A DNA stretch of 35,032 nucleotides from a virus, in the IMG/VR virus record IMGVR_UViG_3300026367_000100, positions 1 through 35,032 of that record; one strand, written 5' to 3'. Below are positions 5,260 to 14,373 of the stretch, in pieces (within the stretch, counting starts at the first letter, position 1; each line of letters begins with the position of its first letter). The notes beneath the pieces are model-generated. The model was given only the letters and a program-made list of their open reading frames with translations, had not been told where the DNA came from and did not search any database. The position numbers and the translations under genes were made by a program.

Positions 5260-5586
5260 ATGTTTTATCATATCCAGCCGCTGGCAAAGCCCAGCTCAAC
5301 GCAGGAGCGGGTTGTTGGCGAGGCCGAAGACGGTCGCATTGTCGTGGCATTACGCGAGGCGGGCGCTGACAGCGGAACCTGCGAAACCATTTTCGAGCTT
5401 CCCGAAGCCGAGAAGCTGGCGCGCGCCTGCCTGTCCGGAGACGAACGGGCGCTGACCACGCCGGGGCTGGCGCGCATCTTTGCCGCTTCCATCATCGTGT
5501 TATCGAGGGCCGCGTTGCAGGCCGGGGCGCTTGAGGCGCAACCAGCCGAAAACAGGCCCGATGATACCCGAAATACAGACGATTGA
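5260..5586 (+). CDS. Early-region protein of unknown function
   Basis: The 108-residue product starts MFYHIQPLAKPSST behind GAGG at five bases. An ATG at 5245, overlapping the upstream gene, is the alternative start. The N-terminal half looks beta-rich (GRIVVALREAG, CETIFELP), and the C-terminal half is helical. Its end overlaps the next gene by 26 bases, so it is part of one rightward operon. No family is recognised. Confidence 0.55.
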   Translation: MFYHIQPLAKPSSTQERVVGEAEDGRIVVALREAGADSGTCETIFELPEAEKLARACLSGDERALTTPGLARIFAASIIVLSRAALQAGALEAQPAENRPDDTRNTDD

Positions 5587-6091
5587 AGCAGGCCGGATCC
5601 GGCTCAAGATCTCCGGTGCCGAGCTGTGCCGGCTGTCGGGCGTTGCCTGGCGCGCCTATGCCGACGCGCGCGACGGGCGCGCAGCACCACGAAAGGCGAC
5701 AATCGCCAAGCTCAGAAGCGGGCTTGCCAGTGCCCGGTCCGGCAAAGGGCAGGAAGCGCGCGCGCTGGGGCCTGCGGCGGCGCTCAGGATCCTGATCGCG
5801 CTGGTGGCGCGTGAACGTGAAACCGATCCGGCGGCGGCGCTGTCGTCCAACCCCGGTTTGCGGGCGACTTTTTCGGCGGAATGGAGCGACCACGCGACGA
5901 CGCGGCGGATTGCCATCTACCTTGCCAATGGCGCGATGGGGTTTCGCACCTCCGATATCGGCCGGGCGCTCGGCCTGACCAAGCAGGCGGTCAGTCTCGC
6001 CGTGCGCGAGATCGATGACCGGCGCGACGAGAATGCCGACCTCAACACCCTGCTCGAACAGATCGAACGGTGGATCGCATGTCAGCCATGA
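5561..6091 (+). CDS. DNA-binding protein with DnaA-domain-IV-like C-terminus
   Basis: The 176-residue product has a C-terminal region (about 113-172, RRIAIYLANGAMGFRTSDIG onward) that matches the layout of DnaA domain IV: an IA-x-YLA helix, then a helix-turn-helix (SDIGRALGLTKQAVSLAVRE) and an E-rich last helix. The DnaA signature His is Gln here. The N-terminus (about 17-55) holds another XRE-like helical segment. There is no ATPase domain. It directly precedes the primase gene, whose start it overlaps, so an origin-recognition or regulatory role in phage replication is inferred. The ATG at 5561 lies inside the preceding gene. Confidence 0.65.
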   Translation: MIPEIQTIEAGRIRLKISGAELCRLSGVAWRAYADARDGRAAPRKATIAKLRSGLASARSGKGQEARALGPAAALRILIALVARERETDPAAALSSNPGLRATFSAEWSDHATTRRIAIYLANGAMGFRTSDIGRALGLTKQAVSLAVREIDDRRDENADLNTLLEQIERWIACQP

Positions 6092-7245
6092 AGCCGCGCA
6101 ACGATCTACCGGAAATAAAGCTGGCGCTGCAGGCGCGCATTGCCGATCTGTGCCGTCAGCTGCTGCCCGAAGGGCGGATGGAGGGTGGCCAGTGGGTTTG
6201 CCACAATCCGCAATATGCGGTGAACGCGCGCGCCGACCGGACGTTCAAGGTCAGGATCTCCGGCGGTGTTGCTGGTGCCTGGATCGACTGGCGCAGCGGC
6301 GACAAGGGCGACGTGATCGGGTTGATTGCCTTTTGCAACCGCTCGAACATGGGCGACGCGATGAAGTGGGCGCGCGACTGGCTGGGGATTTCGCGCATGG
6401 ATGCGGCGACCCGGTCGCGGTTGCAACGCGATGCGGCCACCATGCGCCAGCGTGCCGAGGATGACGATGCGCGGATGCGGGCGGACAAGATCAAGGCGGG
6501 GCAAGCGCTGTTCAACGCCGCGCGGCCCGGAAATTTGTTACCGACACCCAACACCGATGGCCCCTGGCATGGGCCGGAAGCGCTGGCGATCAATTATTTT
6601 TCCGCGCGGGGTTGCCCGCTGCAGGACATTCCGGATCTGGCCTATTCGAATTTCCGGTTTTCGGAAGCCACCGAATGGTGGAAGGGCGCGAAATGGGAAA
6701 AGCGGCAGGGCCAAGGCGGCCAGCCCTACATGGCCAAGGTCGAGCCCGGGCCGTGTTTCCCGGCGATCCATTCGGCGATGCGCAACCGCTCGGGCGCTCT
6801 GACGGCCTGCCATGTGACCTGGCTTGACCCGATCCGGCCGGTCAAGGCCGGGGTGACCAAGCCGAAGCTGATGCGCGGGATTGCACAGGGCGCGGTGATC
6901 GAACTTGCGACCGGGCCGGAAGGCGTCGCGTTCTGGCAGGCGGAAGCGGCGCACCCGCTGGTGATCGGCGAAGGGCTTGAAACCGTGGCCTCGATTGGCG
7001 TCGCGATCGATGGCAAGGCGCGACTGTGGGCCGCCGGATCTCTGTCAGGGATTGCCAACGCGCCGGTCGATCTCGACTGCATCGGCTCGATCATCTTTGC
7101 CCGTGACAACAATGACGGCAATGCGCAGGCGCAACGCCAGTTCAATGCCGCACTCGAATGGCTGGAAGCCTCCGGCCGACCCGTCACCGTGATCGCGTCT
7201 CACGTTGGCGATGATTTCAACGACCTGGCGCAAGGAGAAGACTGA
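6079..7245 (+). CDS. Toprim-domain primase-like replication protein
   Basis: In the 388-residue product the N-terminal domain (about 30-105) resembles a primase zinc-binding fold that has lost its cysteines (GGQWVCHNPQYAVNARADRT, then GDVIGLIAFCN). The C-terminal Toprim domain (about 290-385) shows the conserved acidic strand LVIGEGLETVASI (Glu298) and the D-x-x-D motif FARDNND (Asp343, Asp346), as in phage primases of the Toprim_3 group. It would prime phage DNA replication with the helicase downstream. The ATG at 6079 (GGTGGA SD) is preferred; the one at 6088 overlaps the upstream stop as ATGA. It is coupled to the next gene by a one-base overlap. Confidence 0.8.
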   Translation: MSAMKPRNDLPEIKLALQARIADLCRQLLPEGRMEGGQWVCHNPQYAVNARADRTFKVRISGGVAGAWIDWRSGDKGDVIGLIAFCNRSNMGDAMKWARDWLGISRMDAATRSRLQRDAATMRQRAEDDDARMRADKIKAGQALFNAARPGNLLPTPNTDGPWHGPEALAINYFSARGCPLQDIPDLAYSNFRFSEATEWWKGAKWEKRQGQGGQPYMAKVEPGPCFPAIHSAMRNRSGALTACHVTWLDPIRPVKAGVTKPKLMRGIAQGAVIELATGPEGVAFWQAEAAHPLVIGEGLETVASIGVAIDGKARLWAAGSLSGIANAPVDLDCIGSIIFARDNNDGNAQAQRQFNAALEWLEASGRPVTVIASHVGDDFNDLAQGED

Positions 7246-7993: not shown

Positions 7994-9868
7994 ATGGCCA
8001 AGGCACAGACACAGACCGGCAAGCGCGCAATCCGCGCCAAGTTTACCGACGCGATGCGCGCGCTCGATGATGAAAAGCCGCCGGTCTATTGCGACCCGAA
8101 CCAGCCCCGCGACGGCATCAAGCCCGGCGCGTGGACGGGCGCGCCCTTTGCCAACCTGCCGCCGGACTGCCCGGTGTCGGTTGTGGGCTTTGATGTGGAT
8201 CAAAAGCTGTGGCTGAAGAACGCGCGCGGCTACCTGATGGCGATCGAGCGGTTTGACGCCAACACGCTGACCGCCGCGTTCAGCCCGCAAACCGATTACC
8301 TGCTGTGGGCCTGGCCCGCATTCGGCGCGAAAAAGATCACCAACAGCGAGGGCGGCACAGAAGAAATCAAAATTGTCAAGCGGCTGGAAGTGCAGCAGGC
8401 GGCGATGTGCCTGCAGACCGAAGCGGGCCGCAAGCGGGTGTTTGATGCCCACACCATGCACCGTGGCCGTGGCGGCTGGGCCGACAAGCAGGACAATTTC
8501 ATATGGCATTCGGGCGACTGGCTGTGGCGCTCGGATCGCGGCAAGCTGACCTCGTCGCGGCCGGATGAATATGACGGGTTTCTGTATACGCGCGGCAAGC
8601 CGACAATCGAGCCCTGGCACGAGCCGGTGGCGACCGAGGAAAGCCCGGCCAAACGGATCCTTGACGATCTGGCGACATGGAACTGGCAGCGGCCTTACCT
8701 CGACCCGGTGCTGGTGCTGGGCTGGATTGCCAGCTCGATCATGGGCGGGGCGCTGAAAGCGCGGCCTATCGTGTTCACCACTGGCGGCCACGGCGTTGGC
8801 AAATCGACGCTGCACGAGCTGATTACCAACACGCTGCAGGGCGTGGTCAACACGGCCGTCGACACCACGGCGGCGGGGATCTACCAGAAGGCCAAGCATG
8901 ACGCGCTGCCGTTTCTGGTTGACGAGCTGGAGAGCAAGGCCGGATCCTCGAAAAACCAGTCCGTCATCGAGCTGGCGCGCGTGGCCTATACCGGCGGCGA
9001 CATTTCGCGCGGCGGGGCCGACCACGAGGGCACCACGTTCAAGATGAATTCATCGTTCATGTTTTCGGCGATCAACCCGCCACCCATGGGCGCGCAGGAC
9101 AAGAGCCGCATGGCGGTGCTGAACCTTGGGCGGCTTGAAGCCAATGATGGCGTGCGCAAGATGGTGGCGAACCTTGAGGAAGACGGCCGCATGATCCTGC
9201 GCCAGGTGCTTGACGGCTGGGCCGACTACAAGGCGCGGCTGTTGCCGGACTATTGGAAGACGCTGCACGACCAGAAGCTCGACAGCCGGGCAATCGACAC
9301 ATTCGGCACGCTGCTTGCTGCAGCCGAAATGCTGGTCGGGCCGGAAGCGCTGGAAGCCATCGGCCTGCCGGTGACGGATCAGGTGCAGATGGGCGAGATC
9401 ATCCGCCACGCGACACAGGCCGAGCGCGAGGAAAATCTCGACAACTGGCACAAGTGCCTGAACCAGCTTCTGGACAGCACAATCGACCAGTGGCGCGACG
9501 GCATCAAGCCGACTGTTGGCGGCGTCTGCGATGAAGCCTTGCGCGGTGCGCTCGAACTGCCGTTCGCGCGGGACCGGCTGGGGCTGGTGAATTGCGGGCT
9601 GATGCCGGCGGAACATCTGCCCGACGCGCAGGGGCCGCTGCTGGCGGTGCCAAAGACCGGCCCGGCGCTGATGCGGATATTCGACGGAACCGAGTTTCAC
9701 AAGGAAGTGCATTTCACGGCGCTGAAACAGGCGCCGCGCCACATCGTGATTTCAGATCGCGGCAACAAGCAGAAGGTGAAGATTGCAGGCGTGCCGAAGC
9801 ACTGCCTGCTTATCGATCTTTCGGCGTTTCAGCGCCATGCAGCGCCAGCAGATAGCGCCTCCGGCTAA
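7994..9868 (+). CDS. Phage replicative helicase (superfamily 3/AAA-type P-loop ATPase)
   Basis: The 624-residue product has an N-terminal domain of about 220 residues, then an ATPase core. Visible elements are Walker A GGHGVGKST (264-272), Walker B LPFLVDELE (305-313), a sensor-1 like SFMFSAINPP with Asn361, and an arginine-finger candidate in DKSRMAVLNLGRL (Arg372). This order fits virus-type D5/P4-like helicases that unwind the phage origin, although the C-terminal origin-binding part (about 400-624) is not recognisable by eye. The ATG at 7994 follows an 83-base gap with only a weak SD. It ends convergent with the antirepressor gene, overlapping by four bases. Confidence 0.8.
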   Translation: MAKAQTQTGKRAIRAKFTDAMRALDDEKPPVYCDPNQPRDGIKPGAWTGAPFANLPPDCPVSVVGFDVDQKLWLKNARGYLMAIERFDANTLTAAFSPQTDYLLWAWPAFGAKKITNSEGGTEEIKIVKRLEVQQAAMCLQTEAGRKRVFDAHTMHRGRGGWADKQDNFIWHSGDWLWRSDRGKLTSSRPDEYDGFLYTRGKPTIEPWHEPVATEESPAKRILDDLATWNWQRPYLDPVLVLGWIASSIMGGALKARPIVFTTGGHGVGKSTLHELITNTLQGVVNTAVDTTAAGIYQKAKHDALPFLVDELESKAGSSKNQSVIELARVAYTGGDISRGGADHEGTTFKMNSSFMFSAINPPPMGAQDKSRMAVLNLGRLEANDGVRKMVANLEEDGRMILRQVLDGWADYKARLLPDYWKTLHDQKLDSRAIDTFGTLLAAAEMLVGPEALEAIGLPVTDQVQMGEIIRHATQAEREENLDNWHKCLNQLLDSTIDQWRDGIKPTVGGVCDEALRGALELPFARDRLGLVNCGLMPAEHLPDAQGPLLAVPKTGPALMRIFDGTEFHKEVHFTALKQAPRHIVISDRGNKQKVKIAGVPKHCLLIDLSAFQRHAAPADSASG

Positions 9869-10635
9869 TCGAGCCGGACAAAGCTGGCGCGATGGGCGCG
9901 GCCTTCAAATTTCATGACTTGCGCCCGGTGCCCGGGGAGCCGCGCCAGCGTGCGCCAGAACGCCGGATAGCCTGACAAGGCCTCGCGGATCAGCGGATGG
10001 CTGTTGGCAATCCAGAAGCCGCCCTGCGCGCGCCGAAGGCCGCAAGCGGCAAGGCGCTCATCCGATCCGGTGCGGATCAGATCCACGATAAGGACGTCTC
10101 CGGCCTCGAAGTTCAGCAGCGCTTCAAGGCAGGCCTGTGGATCGGCCTCCGGCTCCGGCGTGGCGTCAGGCACGGCGGGCAGGCCTATGACACCCCACAG
10201 CTCGCGCGCGCGCGCCCGACCGAACAGACGGGCTGCAAGCCGCACAGTTTCGACGCGCGCGGCAAGCGGCGCATCAGCGTCGATCGCGGTTGGCTGTGCA
10301 GCTGCCTGTCCGTATTGGCCGGTCTTGCGGATGGCGGGGATCACCTCATGCGCCAGCCAGCGCTTGAAGCGTTCGGCCTCTGGCTTGCGTGAGCGGAATA
10401 CGAGGCGATAGACGCCGGGTTCCGAGACGATGTTAAGCGTCTGATCGCCGCCGGGGGTGTCACTTATAGTTACACCCTTCTCATCATCATCAAGGTCCGC
10501 GACAGCCTTACGCGGATTTGTGAGGCCCAAGCAGCGGCATACATCGTTGGCAACGAACCAGGGCTCGCCATTTTTCTCAACAATGCGGACTAGATTTGCC
10601 TCAAATGCAAAATTCGTGATGGGGTTCATATTCAT
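9865..10635 (-). CDS. Antirepressor with Bro-N domain
   Basis: The 256-residue product carries a Bro-N domain (about 8-105): PWFVANDVCRCLGLTNPRKA, DDDEKGV, GVYRLVFRSRKPEAERFKRWL and HEVIPAIRKTG. Phage proteins with this domain act as antirepressors or regulators that bind the lysogenic repressor or DNA. The C-terminal half (about 120-256) is not a standard KilA-C or ANT domain; it contains LEALLNFEAGDVLIVDLIR and a GRAHRASFVRLD end. The start at 10635 overlaps the previous stop (ATGA). The Met at 10629 is better spaced from GGAGG. Expression is probably controlled by the leader RNA upstream. Confidence 0.85.
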   Translation of the reverse strand: MNMNPITNFAFEANLVRIVEKNGEPWFVANDVCRCLGLTNPRKAVADLDDDEKGVTISDTPGGDQTLNIVSEPGVYRLVFRSRKPEAERFKRWLAHEVIPAIRKTGQYGQAAAQPTAIDADAPLAARVETVRLAARLFGRARARELWGVIGLPAVPDATPEPEADPQACLEALLNFEAGDVLIVDLIRTGSDERLAACGLRRAQGGFWIANSHPLIREALSGYPAFWRTLARLPGHRAQVMKFEGRAHRASFVRLD

Positions 10636-10865
10636 GCCCTCCGGTTTTGATTGGCGGCATGATGATCGGCATAGAGGGTTTCAACGCTCGAGCTGGCGCG
10701 GCCAAGCTCGGCAGAAATCGTGTTCATCAGATGCCCCAAGGGCGTGCGCATCTGCTGCCAGTCATCGCCTTCGGCGTGATCGAACAGGAAATGCGCGACC
10801 TGCATGAGGCCAAGCGCCGTTTCGACGGTGCATTCGGTGCGGACGAGGTGCGTGATAGTGGACAT
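10632..10865 (-). CDS. Small leader-controlled gene upstream of the antirepressor (icd position)
   Basis: The 77-residue product (MSTITHLVRTECTVETALGL onward) is helical and has no recognised family. Its SD (TTTGGAGA) is the target copy of a C4-type antisense RNA encoded just upstream, and its stop overlaps the antirepressor start as ATGA. This matches the P1 icd-ant arrangement, in which translation of the first gene is needed for antirepressor synthesis. The frame is open upstream to 11264, including a segment from an ATG at 10973, as often seen in icd-type leaders, but the SD supports the start at 10865. Confidence 0.65.
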   Translation of the reverse strand: MSTITHLVRTECTVETALGLMQVAHFLFDHAEGDDWQQMRTPLGHLMNTISAELGRASSSVETLYADHHAANQNRRA

Positions 10866-10871
10866 GGTTTT

Positions 10872-10895
10872 TCTCCAAATAAGCCAGCGACCAAA
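10872..10895 (-). promoter_or_regulatory. Downstream antisense target (seqC/a2-b2-like), includes the SD of the 10865 gene
   Basis: Leftward RNA reads UUUGGUCG (10895-10888) then UUUGGAGA (10879-10872), the latter being the SD of the gene starting at 10865. Both blocks are complementary to the middle segment at 10913-10937. GCCAG/CTGGC arms flank the first block, making a small hairpin. Confidence 0.65.
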
Positions 10896-10900
10896 CTGGC

Positions 10901-10971
10901 GGGTGAGCGACACCGGGTTGGTCGACCGTTGGAGAAACGGCAAGCCTTGCGGCTTCCCAATGCGCCCACCC
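10901..10971 (-). ncRNA. C4-like antisense RNA controlling the antirepressor operon
   Basis: Read leftward this 71-nt segment folds well. A nine-pair closing stem (10963-10971 with 10901-10909, one G-U) encloses an AAGCC-GCAA-GGCUU hairpin with a GNRA loop and a CCGUU-UCUCC-AACGG hairpin that displays an anti-SD loop. Next to it lies CGACCAA. The UCUCCAA and CGACCAA blocks are complementary to two flanking copies (10872-10895 and 11006-11025). This three-part plan is that of P1 C4 and P4 CI immunity RNAs, which silence the operon in the lysogen. The family assignment is by structure and context only. Confidence 0.7.
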
Positions 10972-10973
10972 AT

Positions 10974-10998
10974 AAAAAAACGCGCTACAAGAGCGCGT
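10974..10998 (-). terminator. Terminator-like hairpin inside the antirepressor leader
   Basis: Read leftward, a seven-pair stem (10992-10998 with 10980-10986, five-base loop) is followed by seven T residues (10980-10974). It lies between the upstream target copy and the C4-like RNA. It may be an attenuator or a processing signal that frees the RNA end. It has no T-run in the other direction. Confidence 0.65.
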
Positions 10999-11005
10999 GG
11001 GACGC

Positions 11006-11025
11006 TCTCCAAACCGGCGACCAAA
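11006..11025 (-). promoter_or_regulatory. Upstream antisense target copy (seqA/a1-b1-like)
   Basis: Leftward RNA reads UUUGGUCG (11025-11018), then CCGG, then UUUGGAGA (11013-11006). The two eight-base blocks are identical to those at the SD of the 10865 gene and complementary to the C4-like segment. Together the copies form the A-B-C arrangement of P4-type immunity leaders. Confidence 0.65.
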
Positions 11026-11030
11026 CCGGA

Positions 11031-11048
11031 CTCCACAAGGTTGTGGAG
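11031..11048. promoter_or_regulatory. 18-bp inverted repeat CTCCACAAGGTTGTGGAG
   Basis: Eight-base perfect arms with a two-base centre lie between the presumed leftward promoter and the first target copy. The position, close to the likely transcription start, suits an operator. It could instead be a hairpin at the 5' end of the leader RNA. Confidence 0.5.
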
Positions 11049-11050
11049 CG

Positions 11051-11084
11051 GTGCTAACGTGATCGCGTGTTGCGGGAATGTCAA
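11051..11084 (-). promoter_or_regulatory. Candidate leftward promoter of the antirepressor operon
   Basis: Read leftward, a consensus -35 TTGACA occupies 11084-11079. The -10 is unclear: the hexamer 17 bases on is CACGTT, and TTAGCA lies 21 bases on. Position alone supports it: it precedes the structured leader and no other leftward gene is near. Confidence 0.4.
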
Positions 11085-11097
11085 GGGGAGCGGCGGC

Positions 11098-11406
11098 GTG
11101 GTTCTATCGTTTGTGTTTGGATTGCTTGGCAAGCGCTGGTGGTGGCCAGCGATATTTGCCTTAAGCGGGCTCGCCTTCGAATTACTTGTTATCAATCCCA
11201 AGGTCCTAAACTGGCGGCGCGAGGCCGGGCTGACAGAAACAGGAGAATCAGCCCTCGCGGGCATTGCCGATATGGCGCTCTCGCTGGCGCTTGCGCTCTT
11301 GATGTCTTATCTGGCGTATTGGCTTGGTCTTGTTTTGAAGTACTACAGCACAGATTGGCTGCGCCTCTATAGAGACAGCCGCTCTCGCAATACACGCAAA
11401 GATTAG
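11098..11406 (+). CDS. Small membrane protein of unknown function
   Basis: The GTG at 11098 follows AAGGGGAG at seven bases and gives 102 residues. There are two hydrophobic regions (about 1-32, SFVFGLLGKRWWWPAIFALS, and about 52-80, ALSLALALLMSYLAYWLGLV), and a basic C-terminus (LRLYRDSRSRNTRKD) consistent with the cytoplasmic side. It diverges from the antirepressor leader and precedes the repeat array. There is no family match by eye. It could be an immunity or lysogeny accessory gene. No ATG start is available. Confidence 0.5.
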   Translation: MVLSFVFGLLGKRWWWPAIFALSGLAFELLVINPKVLNWRREAGLTETGESALAGIADMALSLALALLMSYLAYWLGLVLKYYSTDWLRLYRDSRSRNTRKD

Positions 11407-11614: not shown

Positions 11615-11850
11615 GTTACCTCAGTTACCATCTGGTAACCACTTGGTAACCGGAATAAACCAATCAAATCAACATGATAAGCGTTTTGGTTACCGGATAC
11701 CGGTTGCGGGAGAAGCCTTGCGCTTGCGCGTGCGCATGTGTGCTGGAGTTTGGTAACTTGGTAACCACGTAACCTATGGGTGTATGTCATTGAAAAGGCA
11801 GGCAGAAATGCGGTTACCAAACGGTTACCAACGTGCAGTTGCAGGTAACC
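11615..11850. repeat. Iteron-like array of eleven GTTACC/GGTAAC sites
   Basis: Hexamer starts in GTTACC orientation: 11615, 11624, 11689, 11813 and 11824. In GGTAAC orientation: 11634, 11645, 11752 and 11844; GTAACC also occurs at 11761 (part of GGTAACC) and 11769. The fuller unit is TTGGTAACC. Neighbouring sites are often 8-11 bases apart, about one helical turn, so bound proteins would line up on one face. The array lies in a non-coding gap directly upstream of the small terminase gene and downstream of the replication genes. A replication origin or a packaging (pac/cos) recognition site are the two leading readings. Confidence 0.75.
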
Positions 11851-11918
11851 GCAAATCATGAATAAAATAATGGTTGCCGGGCGATAGTCGCGCCGGATCG
11901 CTCAAAAAGGGGCTTGAA

Positions 11919-12467
11919 GTGGTTCGCACACCGGGAAATCTGGAGCCGGAACCGGCCGAAACGGGCCGCGATGCGCTCGACAAGGACGTGCTGGCGATTG
12001 CCCAGGCGCTGCAGGCGCGGCCCGAGGCGGATCAGCTCGATCTCCTTGACGGCTCGCCTGACCTTGACGATGGCGGGCTGTTGGCAAAATCGGCCGAAAC
12101 TTCTCTGCGGGAAAGACGGGGACGGGGAAGGCCGAAAGGATCGCCCAACAAGCGCAACGCCGATGTTTTCGAGTATCTGGAAGCGCTCGGCCATCGAAAC
12201 CCGGCGGTGACGCTGTCGCTGATCCAGTCGATGGAACCCGACGACCTGGCGCGCGCGCTGGTCTGCGACCGGCTGGAAGCGGCGCGGCTGATCGTGTCGG
12301 CGGCCAACTCGCTGATGCCCTACGGCTTCGCCAAGAGGCCGACTGCGGTCGAGGTCAGCGCCAAGCATCTGCATGTCTTTATGGCCGGTGATCTCGGTGG
12401 CGACGATGCCGACGAGGACGGCGGAACGCTGACAATCTTTGGTGATACGCCCGTAACAAGGGAGTAG
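11919..12467 (+). CDS. terS: Probable terminase small subunit
   Basis: The GTG at 11919 follows AAAAAGGGG at six bases and gives 182 residues. An acidic N-terminal part is followed by a basic AT-hook-like patch (RGRGRPKGSPNKRNADVF, about 67-85) and a helical region (about 85-150). The DNA-binding patch and the position directly before the large terminase support a packaging-site recognition role. The C-terminus is acidic. A TTG at 11874 would extend it by 15 residues without a clear SD. The call rests mainly on synteny. Confidence 0.6.
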   Translation: MVRTPGNLEPEPAETGRDALDKDVLAIAQALQARPEADQLDLLDGSPDLDDGGLLAKSAETSLRERRGRGRPKGSPNKRNADVFEYLEALGHRNPAVTLSLIQSMEPDDLARALVCDRLEAARLIVSAANSLMPYGFAKRPTAVEVSAKHLHVFMAGDLGGDDADEDGGTLTIFGDTPVTRE

Positions 12468-12771: not shown

Positions 12772-14373
12772 GTGCCGGGCGTGGGCGGCCATGGGAAAGG
12801 GTTCCGCTTGTCCGATATTTCCTTGCAAAAATACCAGCCTCCCGGCCCGATCGGAACGAAGTTCATCAAGAGCCGCGGGCCGATTGATCTGATCATGGGG
12901 CCTGCCGGATCCGGCAAGACCGTCGCGAGCTGCTTCAAGGGGCCGCACATGCTGGCCGACTGGTATCCTGTCTGCCGTGACGGGGTGATCCGAGCCCGGA
13001 TCGCTGTGATCCGCGACACTTACCGCGACCTCGCGCGTACATGTCTGGCATCCTGGCATGAAATGTTTCCCGAAAAGCACCCGTTCACAACGAGCTACAC
13101 CGGCGGCATTGACCGCCCCGTCAAACACACGCTCGAATATGCCATTTTGCGGGACAAGCGCCAGGTCAAGGTTGAGCTGGAAATGCAGTTTGGCGCCATT
13201 GGCGACAACAATGCGGAACAGTTCATCAAGGGCTACGAGATCACCGCAGGCTGGATGAATGAATGCGATCTTCTCGATGGCCGTGTGCCGGGCCTGTTCT
13301 GGCAACGGACGGGCCGCTATCCGCCGGCTGCCTCCTTTGACGGCGTCGAGCTTGAGAAGGTCGTGGGGCCTTATCGCAAGAGGTTGCAGGGGCTGGGTGT
13401 CAAGATCGATGATACTGAAACCCTGTTGCCGCGCGTCGTCTGGGGCGACATGAACCCGCCCGACATCGACAATTGGTCGTATGAGACATGTGTCGAAAAT
13501 CCAAATCCGATGTTCAACCTGTTCAAGCAGCCTTCAGGGCTCTCGGACCGGGCGGAGAACCGCATCGGCAAGCCGCGCTCATCCTATGAGATCGAGGCGC
13601 TGACCATGCAAAAACACGATGTCAGACGCTATGTCCTGGGCGAGTTCGGCTATGCGCGCGACGGCGAGCCTATTTTTCCGGAATTCAATCTTGAACTGCA
13701 CCGGGCCGACGACTGGCTCAAGCCGATCGAGGGTATGCCGCTGCTGCTCGGCTTCGACTTGGGTGGCTCGCCGGCTTGCGTGGTGGCGCAATCGACGCCG
13801 GAAGGTCAGTTGCGCCTGTTGCGCGAGATCTGCTGCACCCCCGGTTCCGGCCCGATGACGATCGCGCGGCTGGTGCAGGCGCTGCTGCTTGACGAGTATT
13901 CAGGTTTTGCAATCGGCGGTGCCTGGATTGATCCGTCCGGATTTTACGGTGCGGACAGGCAGTCGGGCCAGCTTGCGGGCGCCGAAGTGGTTGCCCAGGC
14001 GCTCGGTTTCAACATTCTGCCCGGCCCTTCGCAGGAACCGGGTTTCCGCACCGACAGCGTGCGCTGGTATCTCAACGGATTGATTGACGGGCACATGCCG
14101 CGCATGATCATCGACCCGCGCTGCAAAATGCTGATTGGCGGTTTTGTTGCCCACTACAAGCTGACCAAACAGGCCAGCGCTGGTGCCACCAATCTGATGG
14201 TCGCTGACAAGAACCCGTATTCACACATTCACGATGCGCTGCAGTATCTGGTGACTGGCTTCAAGGGCCGCACCGGCGCGATCAGCGATCTGTCCAAAAC
14301 GCTCGGCGGCAAGAACGTGGTGCAGATCGGATCGCGCCGGGCAAAATCAGATTTCAGCGTCTGGGACATATGA
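12772..14373 (+). CDS. terL: Terminase large subunit (ATPase-nuclease)
   Basis: The 533-residue product is the packaging motor. The ATPase domain has Walker A GPAGSGKT (43-50) and a Walker B-like strand ending in catalytic Glu (ITAGWMNECDLL, Glu164). The RNase H-like nuclease domain begins LLLGFDLGGSPACVVAQ (Asp329), and the late acidic motif SHIHDALQYL follows near the end. The length suits T7/podovirus large terminases. The start is a GTG at 12772 with GGAG upstream; there is no earlier ATG in frame. The stop overlaps the next gene as ATGA. Confidence 0.88.
   Translation: MPGVGGHGKGFRLSDISLQKYQPPGPIGTKFIKSRGPIDLIMGPAGSGKTVASCFKGPHMLADWYPVCRDGVIRARIAVIRDTYRDLARTCLASWHEMFPEKHPFTTSYTGGIDRPVKHTLEYAILRDKRQVKVELEMQFGAIGDNNAEQFIKGYEITAGWMNECDLLDGRVPGLFWQRTGRYPPAASFDGVELEKVVGPYRKRLQGLGVKIDDTETLLPRVVWGDMNPPDIDNWSYETCVENPNPMFNLFKQPSGLSDRAENRIGKPRSSYEIEALTMQKHDVRRYVLGEFGYARDGEPIFPEFNLELHRADDWLKPIEGMPLLLGFDLGGSPACVVAQSTPEGQLRLLREICCTPGSGPMTIARLVQALLLDEYSGFAIGGAWIDPSGFYGADRQSGQLAGAEVVAQALGFNILPGPSQEPGFRTDSVRWYLNGLIDGHMPRMIIDPRCKMLIGGFVAHYKLTKQASAGATNLMVADKNPYSHIHDALQYLVTGFKGRTGAISDLSKTLGGKNVVQIGSRRAKSDFSVWDI

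Follow-up and report, generated by a model that had tools for sequence, protein, structure and literature searches.

A probable iteron replication origin with a highly variable repeat unit beside the small-terminase gene of rhizobial podophages

The window, that is, the whole stretch of DNA analysed here, is a 35-kb virus record (35,032 nucleotides) with podophage-type genes, including head-tail connector, capsid, and tail genes. The features relevant to the repeat array are as follows.

5480–6091, strand not given: DnaA-domain-IV-like protein with a DnaA-C-like helix-turn-helix (HTH) (TIGR00362, E=4e-4)
6070–7245, plus strand: TOPRIM primase of the replication module (phrog_510, Toprim_3)
7994–9868, plus strand: putative initiator helicase of 624 aa with an AAA+ core and a C-terminal domain, related in structure to SCCmec Cch and SaPI Rep
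9422–9865, plus strand: C-terminal domain of the helicase (about residues 477–616), the proposed iteron reader according to covariation with the unit and the model
11615–11850, no strand: whole iteron array, the proposed origin core, with 10 exact and 2 one-mismatch copies of GGTTACC/GGTAACC; equal place and layout in relatives
11919–12467, plus strand: small terminase with a GTG start, adjoining the array, assigned by position and conservation (profile match weak)
12772–14373, plus strand: large terminase, the query for collecting relatives

Primase and helicase are encoded by separate genes in the window. The gene for the DnaA-domain-IV-like protein is conserved directly 5′ of the primase gene in relatives. 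The window helicase had no Pfam or NCBIfam match, and its PHROG matches were limited to two, one without a known function and one annotated as ‘DNA primase’; its C-terminal domain was not found as a stand-alone copy in 397 genomes at E 1e-10. Positions 9865–11406, between helicase and array, hold variable cargo, including a minus-strand Bro-N antirepressor gene near the array. The array itself lies directly 5′ of the small-terminase gene and consists of the following parts, none of which is assigned a strand.

11615–11650: left outer cluster, with GTTACC at 11615–11620 and 11624–11629 and GGTAAC at 11634–11639 and 11645–11650
11652–11686: AT-rich spacer (69% AT vs. 39% for the window)
11689–11701: left inner pair, with GTTACC at 11689–11694 and the degenerate GATACC at 11696–11701; relatives have full units here at 8-bp spacing
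11703–11750: central GC-rich tract, mostly alternating purine-pyrimidine (TTGCGCTTGCGCGTGCGCATGTGTG)
11752–11773: right inner group, with GGTAAC at 11752–11757 and 11760–11765 and the degenerate CGTAAC at 11768–11773 (spacing 8 and 8)
11775–11811: spacer with the AT-richer element TATGGGTGTATGTCATTGAAAA, of the ATAGGTATATGTTCCTGAAAA type in relatives
11813–11849: right outer cluster, with GTTACC at 11813–11818 and 11824–11829 and GGTAAC at 11844–11849
11859–11871: conserved AT-rich tail of the GAATAAAATAATG type past the last unit, with AATAAA in six of six aligned arrays

Two iteron sets are present; the exact centre is GC-rich, and AT-rich spacers separate the inner from the outer clusters. 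The unit starts in the left outer cluster are spaced by 9, 10, and 11 bp, and the cluster aligns with those of relatives. The AT-richer element TATGGGTGTATGTCATTGAAAA is a possible melting element.

The hexamer GGTAAC/GTTACC occurs 16 times exactly in the window against 3.7 expected, and none of 100 shuffles reached 16. Ten of these copies fall within 11615–11849, where about 0.03 would be expected, which bears out the density far above chance reported by the first-pass annotation. Its count of eleven copies was right only if the one-mismatch CGTAAC is taken as the eleventh, and the one-mismatch GATACC comes in addition; both deviating units match the pattern of relatives, whose aligned arrays carry a full unit in place of GATACC. 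The placement of the sites on the same helical face, also proposed there, agrees with the outer clusters (9–12 bp) and not with the inner pairs, since 8 bp is not one turn. Although a minus-strand ORF of 203 aa spans the array in the window, the stretch is, by comparison of sequences, non-coding, as had been stated: no frame is open across the array in 33 of 56 relatives. No GC-skew switch was observed at the array in the window, and no match to the DnaA box TT(A/T)TNCACA was found in the whole window.

Relatives were collected using the large terminase as a query, which retrieved 11 rhizobial prophages, and using a large-terminase alignment, which retrieved 49 viral contigs. Single-sequence queries with the small terminase and the helicase yielded no relatives in viral_contigs, and no close relative was found among public phage records. 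A search of 397 genomes with the helicase C-terminal domain gave matches in 21 genomes; in the 20 regions fetched, the gene order was helicase, array, small terminase, and large terminase, with the array in nearly all. The two kinds of counter-evidence named by the first-pass annotation, homologous phages lacking the array and similar clusters elsewhere, were not encountered. The array is located 5′ of the small-terminase gene in every close relative covering the stretch (rhizobial podophages and prophages), and closely paired GGTTACC sites in five host genomes (3.4–6.1 Mb) were confined to the prophage array, besides 0–2 strays per genome. The interval between helicase and array in relatives varied from about 0.1 to 6.5 kb, other genes may intervene, and in two loci (L088 and L100) the array lies 110–120 bp past the helicase gene. 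As SaPI/PICI-type replicons require, multiple short repeats are thus present in non-coding DNA on the 3′ side of the gene for the helicase.

A GGTTACC-type unit together with alignment to the window was found in five of the 11 first rhizobial prophages; the others carried an array at the equivalent position with the units GGTTACA, GGTTGAA, AGTTGCC, GGTAGAC, GGTTACG, and ACCTACA. Further units (GGGGACA, GGGTACA, TTAGACA, and TGGAACA) came from the search with the helicase C-terminal domain. In total, 23 distinct 7-mer units were recorded across 52 loci, the window unit and at least 22 others, and the unit was usually altered in all copies of an array together. Units were assigned from the repeats by the analyst, with orientation set by the inner pairs; array calls were ambiguous for L055, L057, and L101, and five loci with 30–34% large-terminase identity (L053, L056, and L059–L061), whose arrays were visible by eye, were excluded from the statistics. 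The earlier remark that the recognised unit is not a standard one is correct because the unit differs between phages. Mixed arrays were present in L033, L034, L037, and L042, with GGTTACC, GGTTGGC, and GGTTGCC at different positions, and suggest, from sequence comparison, that the unit changes stepwise. The right inner pair in these arrays tends to remain GGTAACC. In L089–L094, arrays of GGGGACACC units (GGGGACA) carry a second unit, GTTCCAC/GTGGAAC, at array positions 5′ of the small terminase, which may be read as two specificities or as an array in transition. Two of these loci, L093 and L094, are helicase-bearing prophage regions of one genome (G347); since both have the unit GGGGACA, equal units are compatible with co-residence.

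The arrays hold about 10–12 units in a typical layout. On the left, four outer units about 8–12 bp apart are followed by a gap of about 43 bp and two units 8 bp apart; after about 60 bp with a GCGCGC tract, 2–3 units in the opposite direction follow 8 bp apart. The right outer units come last, beyond a stretch of about 44 bp that contains a TATATG-type element. The GCGCGC-type tract occupies the central position in most relatives. Convergent 8-bp inner pairs 55–76 bp apart were found in 34 of 50 non-redundant loci, compared with a mean of 2.0 and a maximum of 6 when gap order and orientation were shuffled. Owing to its nearly palindromic unit and one degenerate inner copy, the window was left unscored in this test. 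The layout is conserved although the sequence of the unit varies.

Modelled with AlphaFold2 (pLDDT 89), the helicase had SCCmec Cch as its nearest full-length match (Z 16.1, 440 residues aligned, residues 47–614), although the two proteins (5dgk for Cch) are only 12% identical over the structural alignment. The next matches were MCM helicases (Z about 14) and SaPI5 Rep (Z 14.2). The model places the helicase in the MCM-like/SaPI Rep structural group, with a predicted extra C-terminal domain. The isolated C-terminal domain (pLDDT 88) gave weak fold matches with Z below 5, headed by winged-helix proteins (TcpK bound to oriT, and SarS). SaPI Rep uses its C-terminal domain to recognise iterons immediately 3′ of rep, and the C-terminal domain of Cch2 binds its own repeats in isolation (PMC7581432); in SaPI/PICI elements, the origin is located on the 3′ side of the helicase gene (PMC7581432, PMC6092414).

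Covariation between unit and protein was evaluated with a matched-pair test limited to pairs with similar helicase cores, with approximate p-values because the permutation of labels over loci took no account of the tree. Pairs sharing a unit had more similar helicase C-terminal domains when the rest of the helicase was controlled for, with p=0.007 in the first set and p=0.0007 for 52 loci at identity thresholds of 0.5 and 0.6; at 0.7, with fewer pairs, p was 0.085. The helicase N-terminal part, the AAA+ core, the small terminase (p=0.18), and the primase showed no excess similarity in this test (p 0.18–0.77). The partial rank correlation with unit mismatches was −0.20 for the helicase C-terminal domain and −0.01 for the small terminase. 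Global Mantel tests over 35 loci detected no correlation between whole-protein and unit distances for any protein; in a 17-locus subset, the signal for the primase was weak (p=0.03). When unit changes were placed on gene trees by parsimony, the step counts failed to separate the proteins (helicase 15 steps, small terminase 15, large terminase and primase 16–17). Column-wise mutual information picked helicase residues 554–557 and 603–606 in the first set; in the enlarged set, the columns of every protein mostly track phylogeny, and an enrichment of the helicase C-terminal domain persists for unit positions 5–6 alone (6 of the top 20 columns). No specific contact residues are claimed, since the columns of the enlarged set mostly follow phylogeny. 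The helicase C-terminal domain was found to be the only tested segment whose sequence covaries with the unit, which supports recognition of the repeats by this domain.

Two pairs of related phages allowed a direct comparison. In the first, near-identical pair, L016 has the unit AATTAGA and L048, like L005, has CGTTACC, with five of seven unit positions different; identity is 90% for the DnaA-like protein, with an almost unchanged HTH, 94% for the primase, 92% for the small terminase, and 94% for the large terminase, and 57% for the helicase. Helicase, intervening genes, and array may have been swapped as a single block, so the pair argues against the conserved proteins and is by itself no proof for the helicase. 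In the second pair, L009 and L036, the arrays are alignable (GGTAGACG and GGTTGACC); each of the 12 units has a different base at position 4, the 84 unit columns contain one more difference, and the spacers differ at 30 of 150 columns. Their helicases are 94% identical, with most of the AAA+ core unchanged and several changes in the C-terminal domain; the small terminases are 88% identical, with changes mainly in the C-terminal half, and the C-terminal HTH of the DnaA-like protein is nearly identical despite the unit difference.

Among the alternatives, a packaging start (pac) site whose units are recognised by the small terminase of the adjoining downstream gene, one of the two options left open by the first-pass annotation, fits the invariable position of the array directly 5′ of that gene, and pac sites are often located in or near the small-terminase gene. 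This reading is very unlikely, as L016 and L048 share 92% small-terminase identity despite largely different units, same-unit pairs had no excess small-terminase similarity, and small terminases are only 57–61% identical in L034, L042, and L041, where the units are almost equal. Binding by the DnaA-domain-IV-like protein, which would recruit the helicase, has in its favour the conservation of this protein beside the primase and its DnaA-C-like HTH; it is hardly credible given that the HTH is nearly the same within both pairs despite their different units.

Temperate phages diversify operator specificity, and the array could be an operator for a repressor, an antirepressor partner, or a late-gene activator, with the unit diversity reflecting immunity specificity as in heteroimmune temperate phages. 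The position of the array 5′ of the late operon and the nearby Bro-N antirepressor gene in the window would agree with such a role. Against it, most relatives are without an antirepressor, no conserved regulator was found between helicase and array in the loci read, the only conserved regulator-like protein is the DnaA-like HTH protein, which is about 90% identical in L016 and L048, and the covariation indicates the helicase C-terminal domain. An operator is unlikely on this evidence.

The array is most probably the replication origin of the phage, with iterons read by the C-terminal domain of its own AAA+ helicase. An origin is favoured over a packaging site because the unit covaries with this domain and not with the small terminase, the primase, or the DnaA-like protein. 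The helicase, expected to be hexameric and on the best reading an initiator of the self-loading type, would bind the repeats through its C-terminal domain, whose recognition unit would be roughly 7 bp long (GGTTACC/GGTAACC in the window). Two helicase assemblies facing in opposite directions would be positioned by the outer clusters and by the convergent inner pairs on either side of the GC tract. Melting of an AT-rich spacer would be followed by bidirectional loading of the two hexamers, and the neighbouring TOPRIM primase would start synthesis. Among the relatives, the unit has changed repeatedly with the layout kept, and the C-terminal domain would have changed to match. Several observations were counted against an origin: the array always adjoins the small-terminase gene, with the helicase at a variable distance; the Mantel tests were null and parsimony was non-discriminating; p was 0.085 at the threshold of 0.7; the GC skew does not switch; the single-column signal in the enlarged set is mostly phylogeny; the fold matches of the C-terminal domain are weak; and L016/L048 may represent a block swap.

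Phage P4 alpha is a helicase-type initiator acting on short iterons, with primase and helicase in one chain and an origin of two separated parts. This parallel, drawn in the first-pass annotation for a helicase-read iteron origin, is not the closest one: the best structural matches of the helicase model are SCCmec Cch and SaPI Rep. Primase and helicase are encoded separately here. At the origins of SV40 large T and papillomavirus E1, a self-loading hexameric helicase reads paired convergent short sites, a similarity to the origin proposed here. The origin-binding domain is N-terminal in these viral proteins (PMC7581432) and, as proposed, C-terminal here.

The PICI/SaPI replicon (PMC6092414, PMC7581432) resembles the system proposed here in its AAA+ initiator helicase, an origin 3′ of the helicase gene, two iteron sets around a middle element, an iteron sequence that varies between elements, and a primase beside the helicase (beside or fused in PICI/SaPI). 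The system described here differs in belonging to full-length Rhizobiales podophages, in the separate TOPRIM primase and the variable genes between helicase and array, and in having about 10–12 units in four clusters, with the 8-bp pairs converging on a GC-rich alternating tract between them. SCCmec Cch is the closest solved full-length structure despite its low identity; the related Cch2 binds, through its C-terminal domain, short direct repeats that follow the Cch2 gene on its 3′ side (PMC7581432), with three iterons compared with about 10–12 here. In the Vibrio cholerae PLE RepA/ori system (PMC8263062), the DNA-binding domain of the initiator likewise covaries with the iterons, and both are exchanged in modular fashion, probably in response to the phage nuclease Odn, which attacks PLE; however, the PLE initiator is a RepA_N protein and not a helicase, with three iterons of about 30 bp and two groups instead of 23 units.

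By analogy, the change of unit could be driven by Odn-like pressure or by rivalry of co-resident prophages. A fast, concerted, family-wide diversification of the origin code is tentatively put forward, in which the geometry is fixed, at least 23 units are each matched by a helicase C-terminal domain, all 10–12 copies switch together, and competition or origin-targeting defences are the driver; the mixed arrays of L033, L034, L037, and L042 and of L089–L094 (GGGGACA/GTTCCAC) would then be snapshots of a switch. An initiator helicase with an iteron origin is of a known kind; the open-access literature searched appears to hold no description of this phage family, of the layout, or of unit diversification to this extent. 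The finding would assign an origin to a widespread family of rhizobial podophages and a function to a helicase lacking a Pfam or NCBIfam match, and it would represent a PICI-like origin in full phages. The relatives form a natural set of matched protein–DNA pairs: the 23 natural combinations of unit and helicase, some of them one position apart, would open the code by which an initiator helicase recognises its sites to direct testing, together with the question of how all iterons of one origin switch at once.
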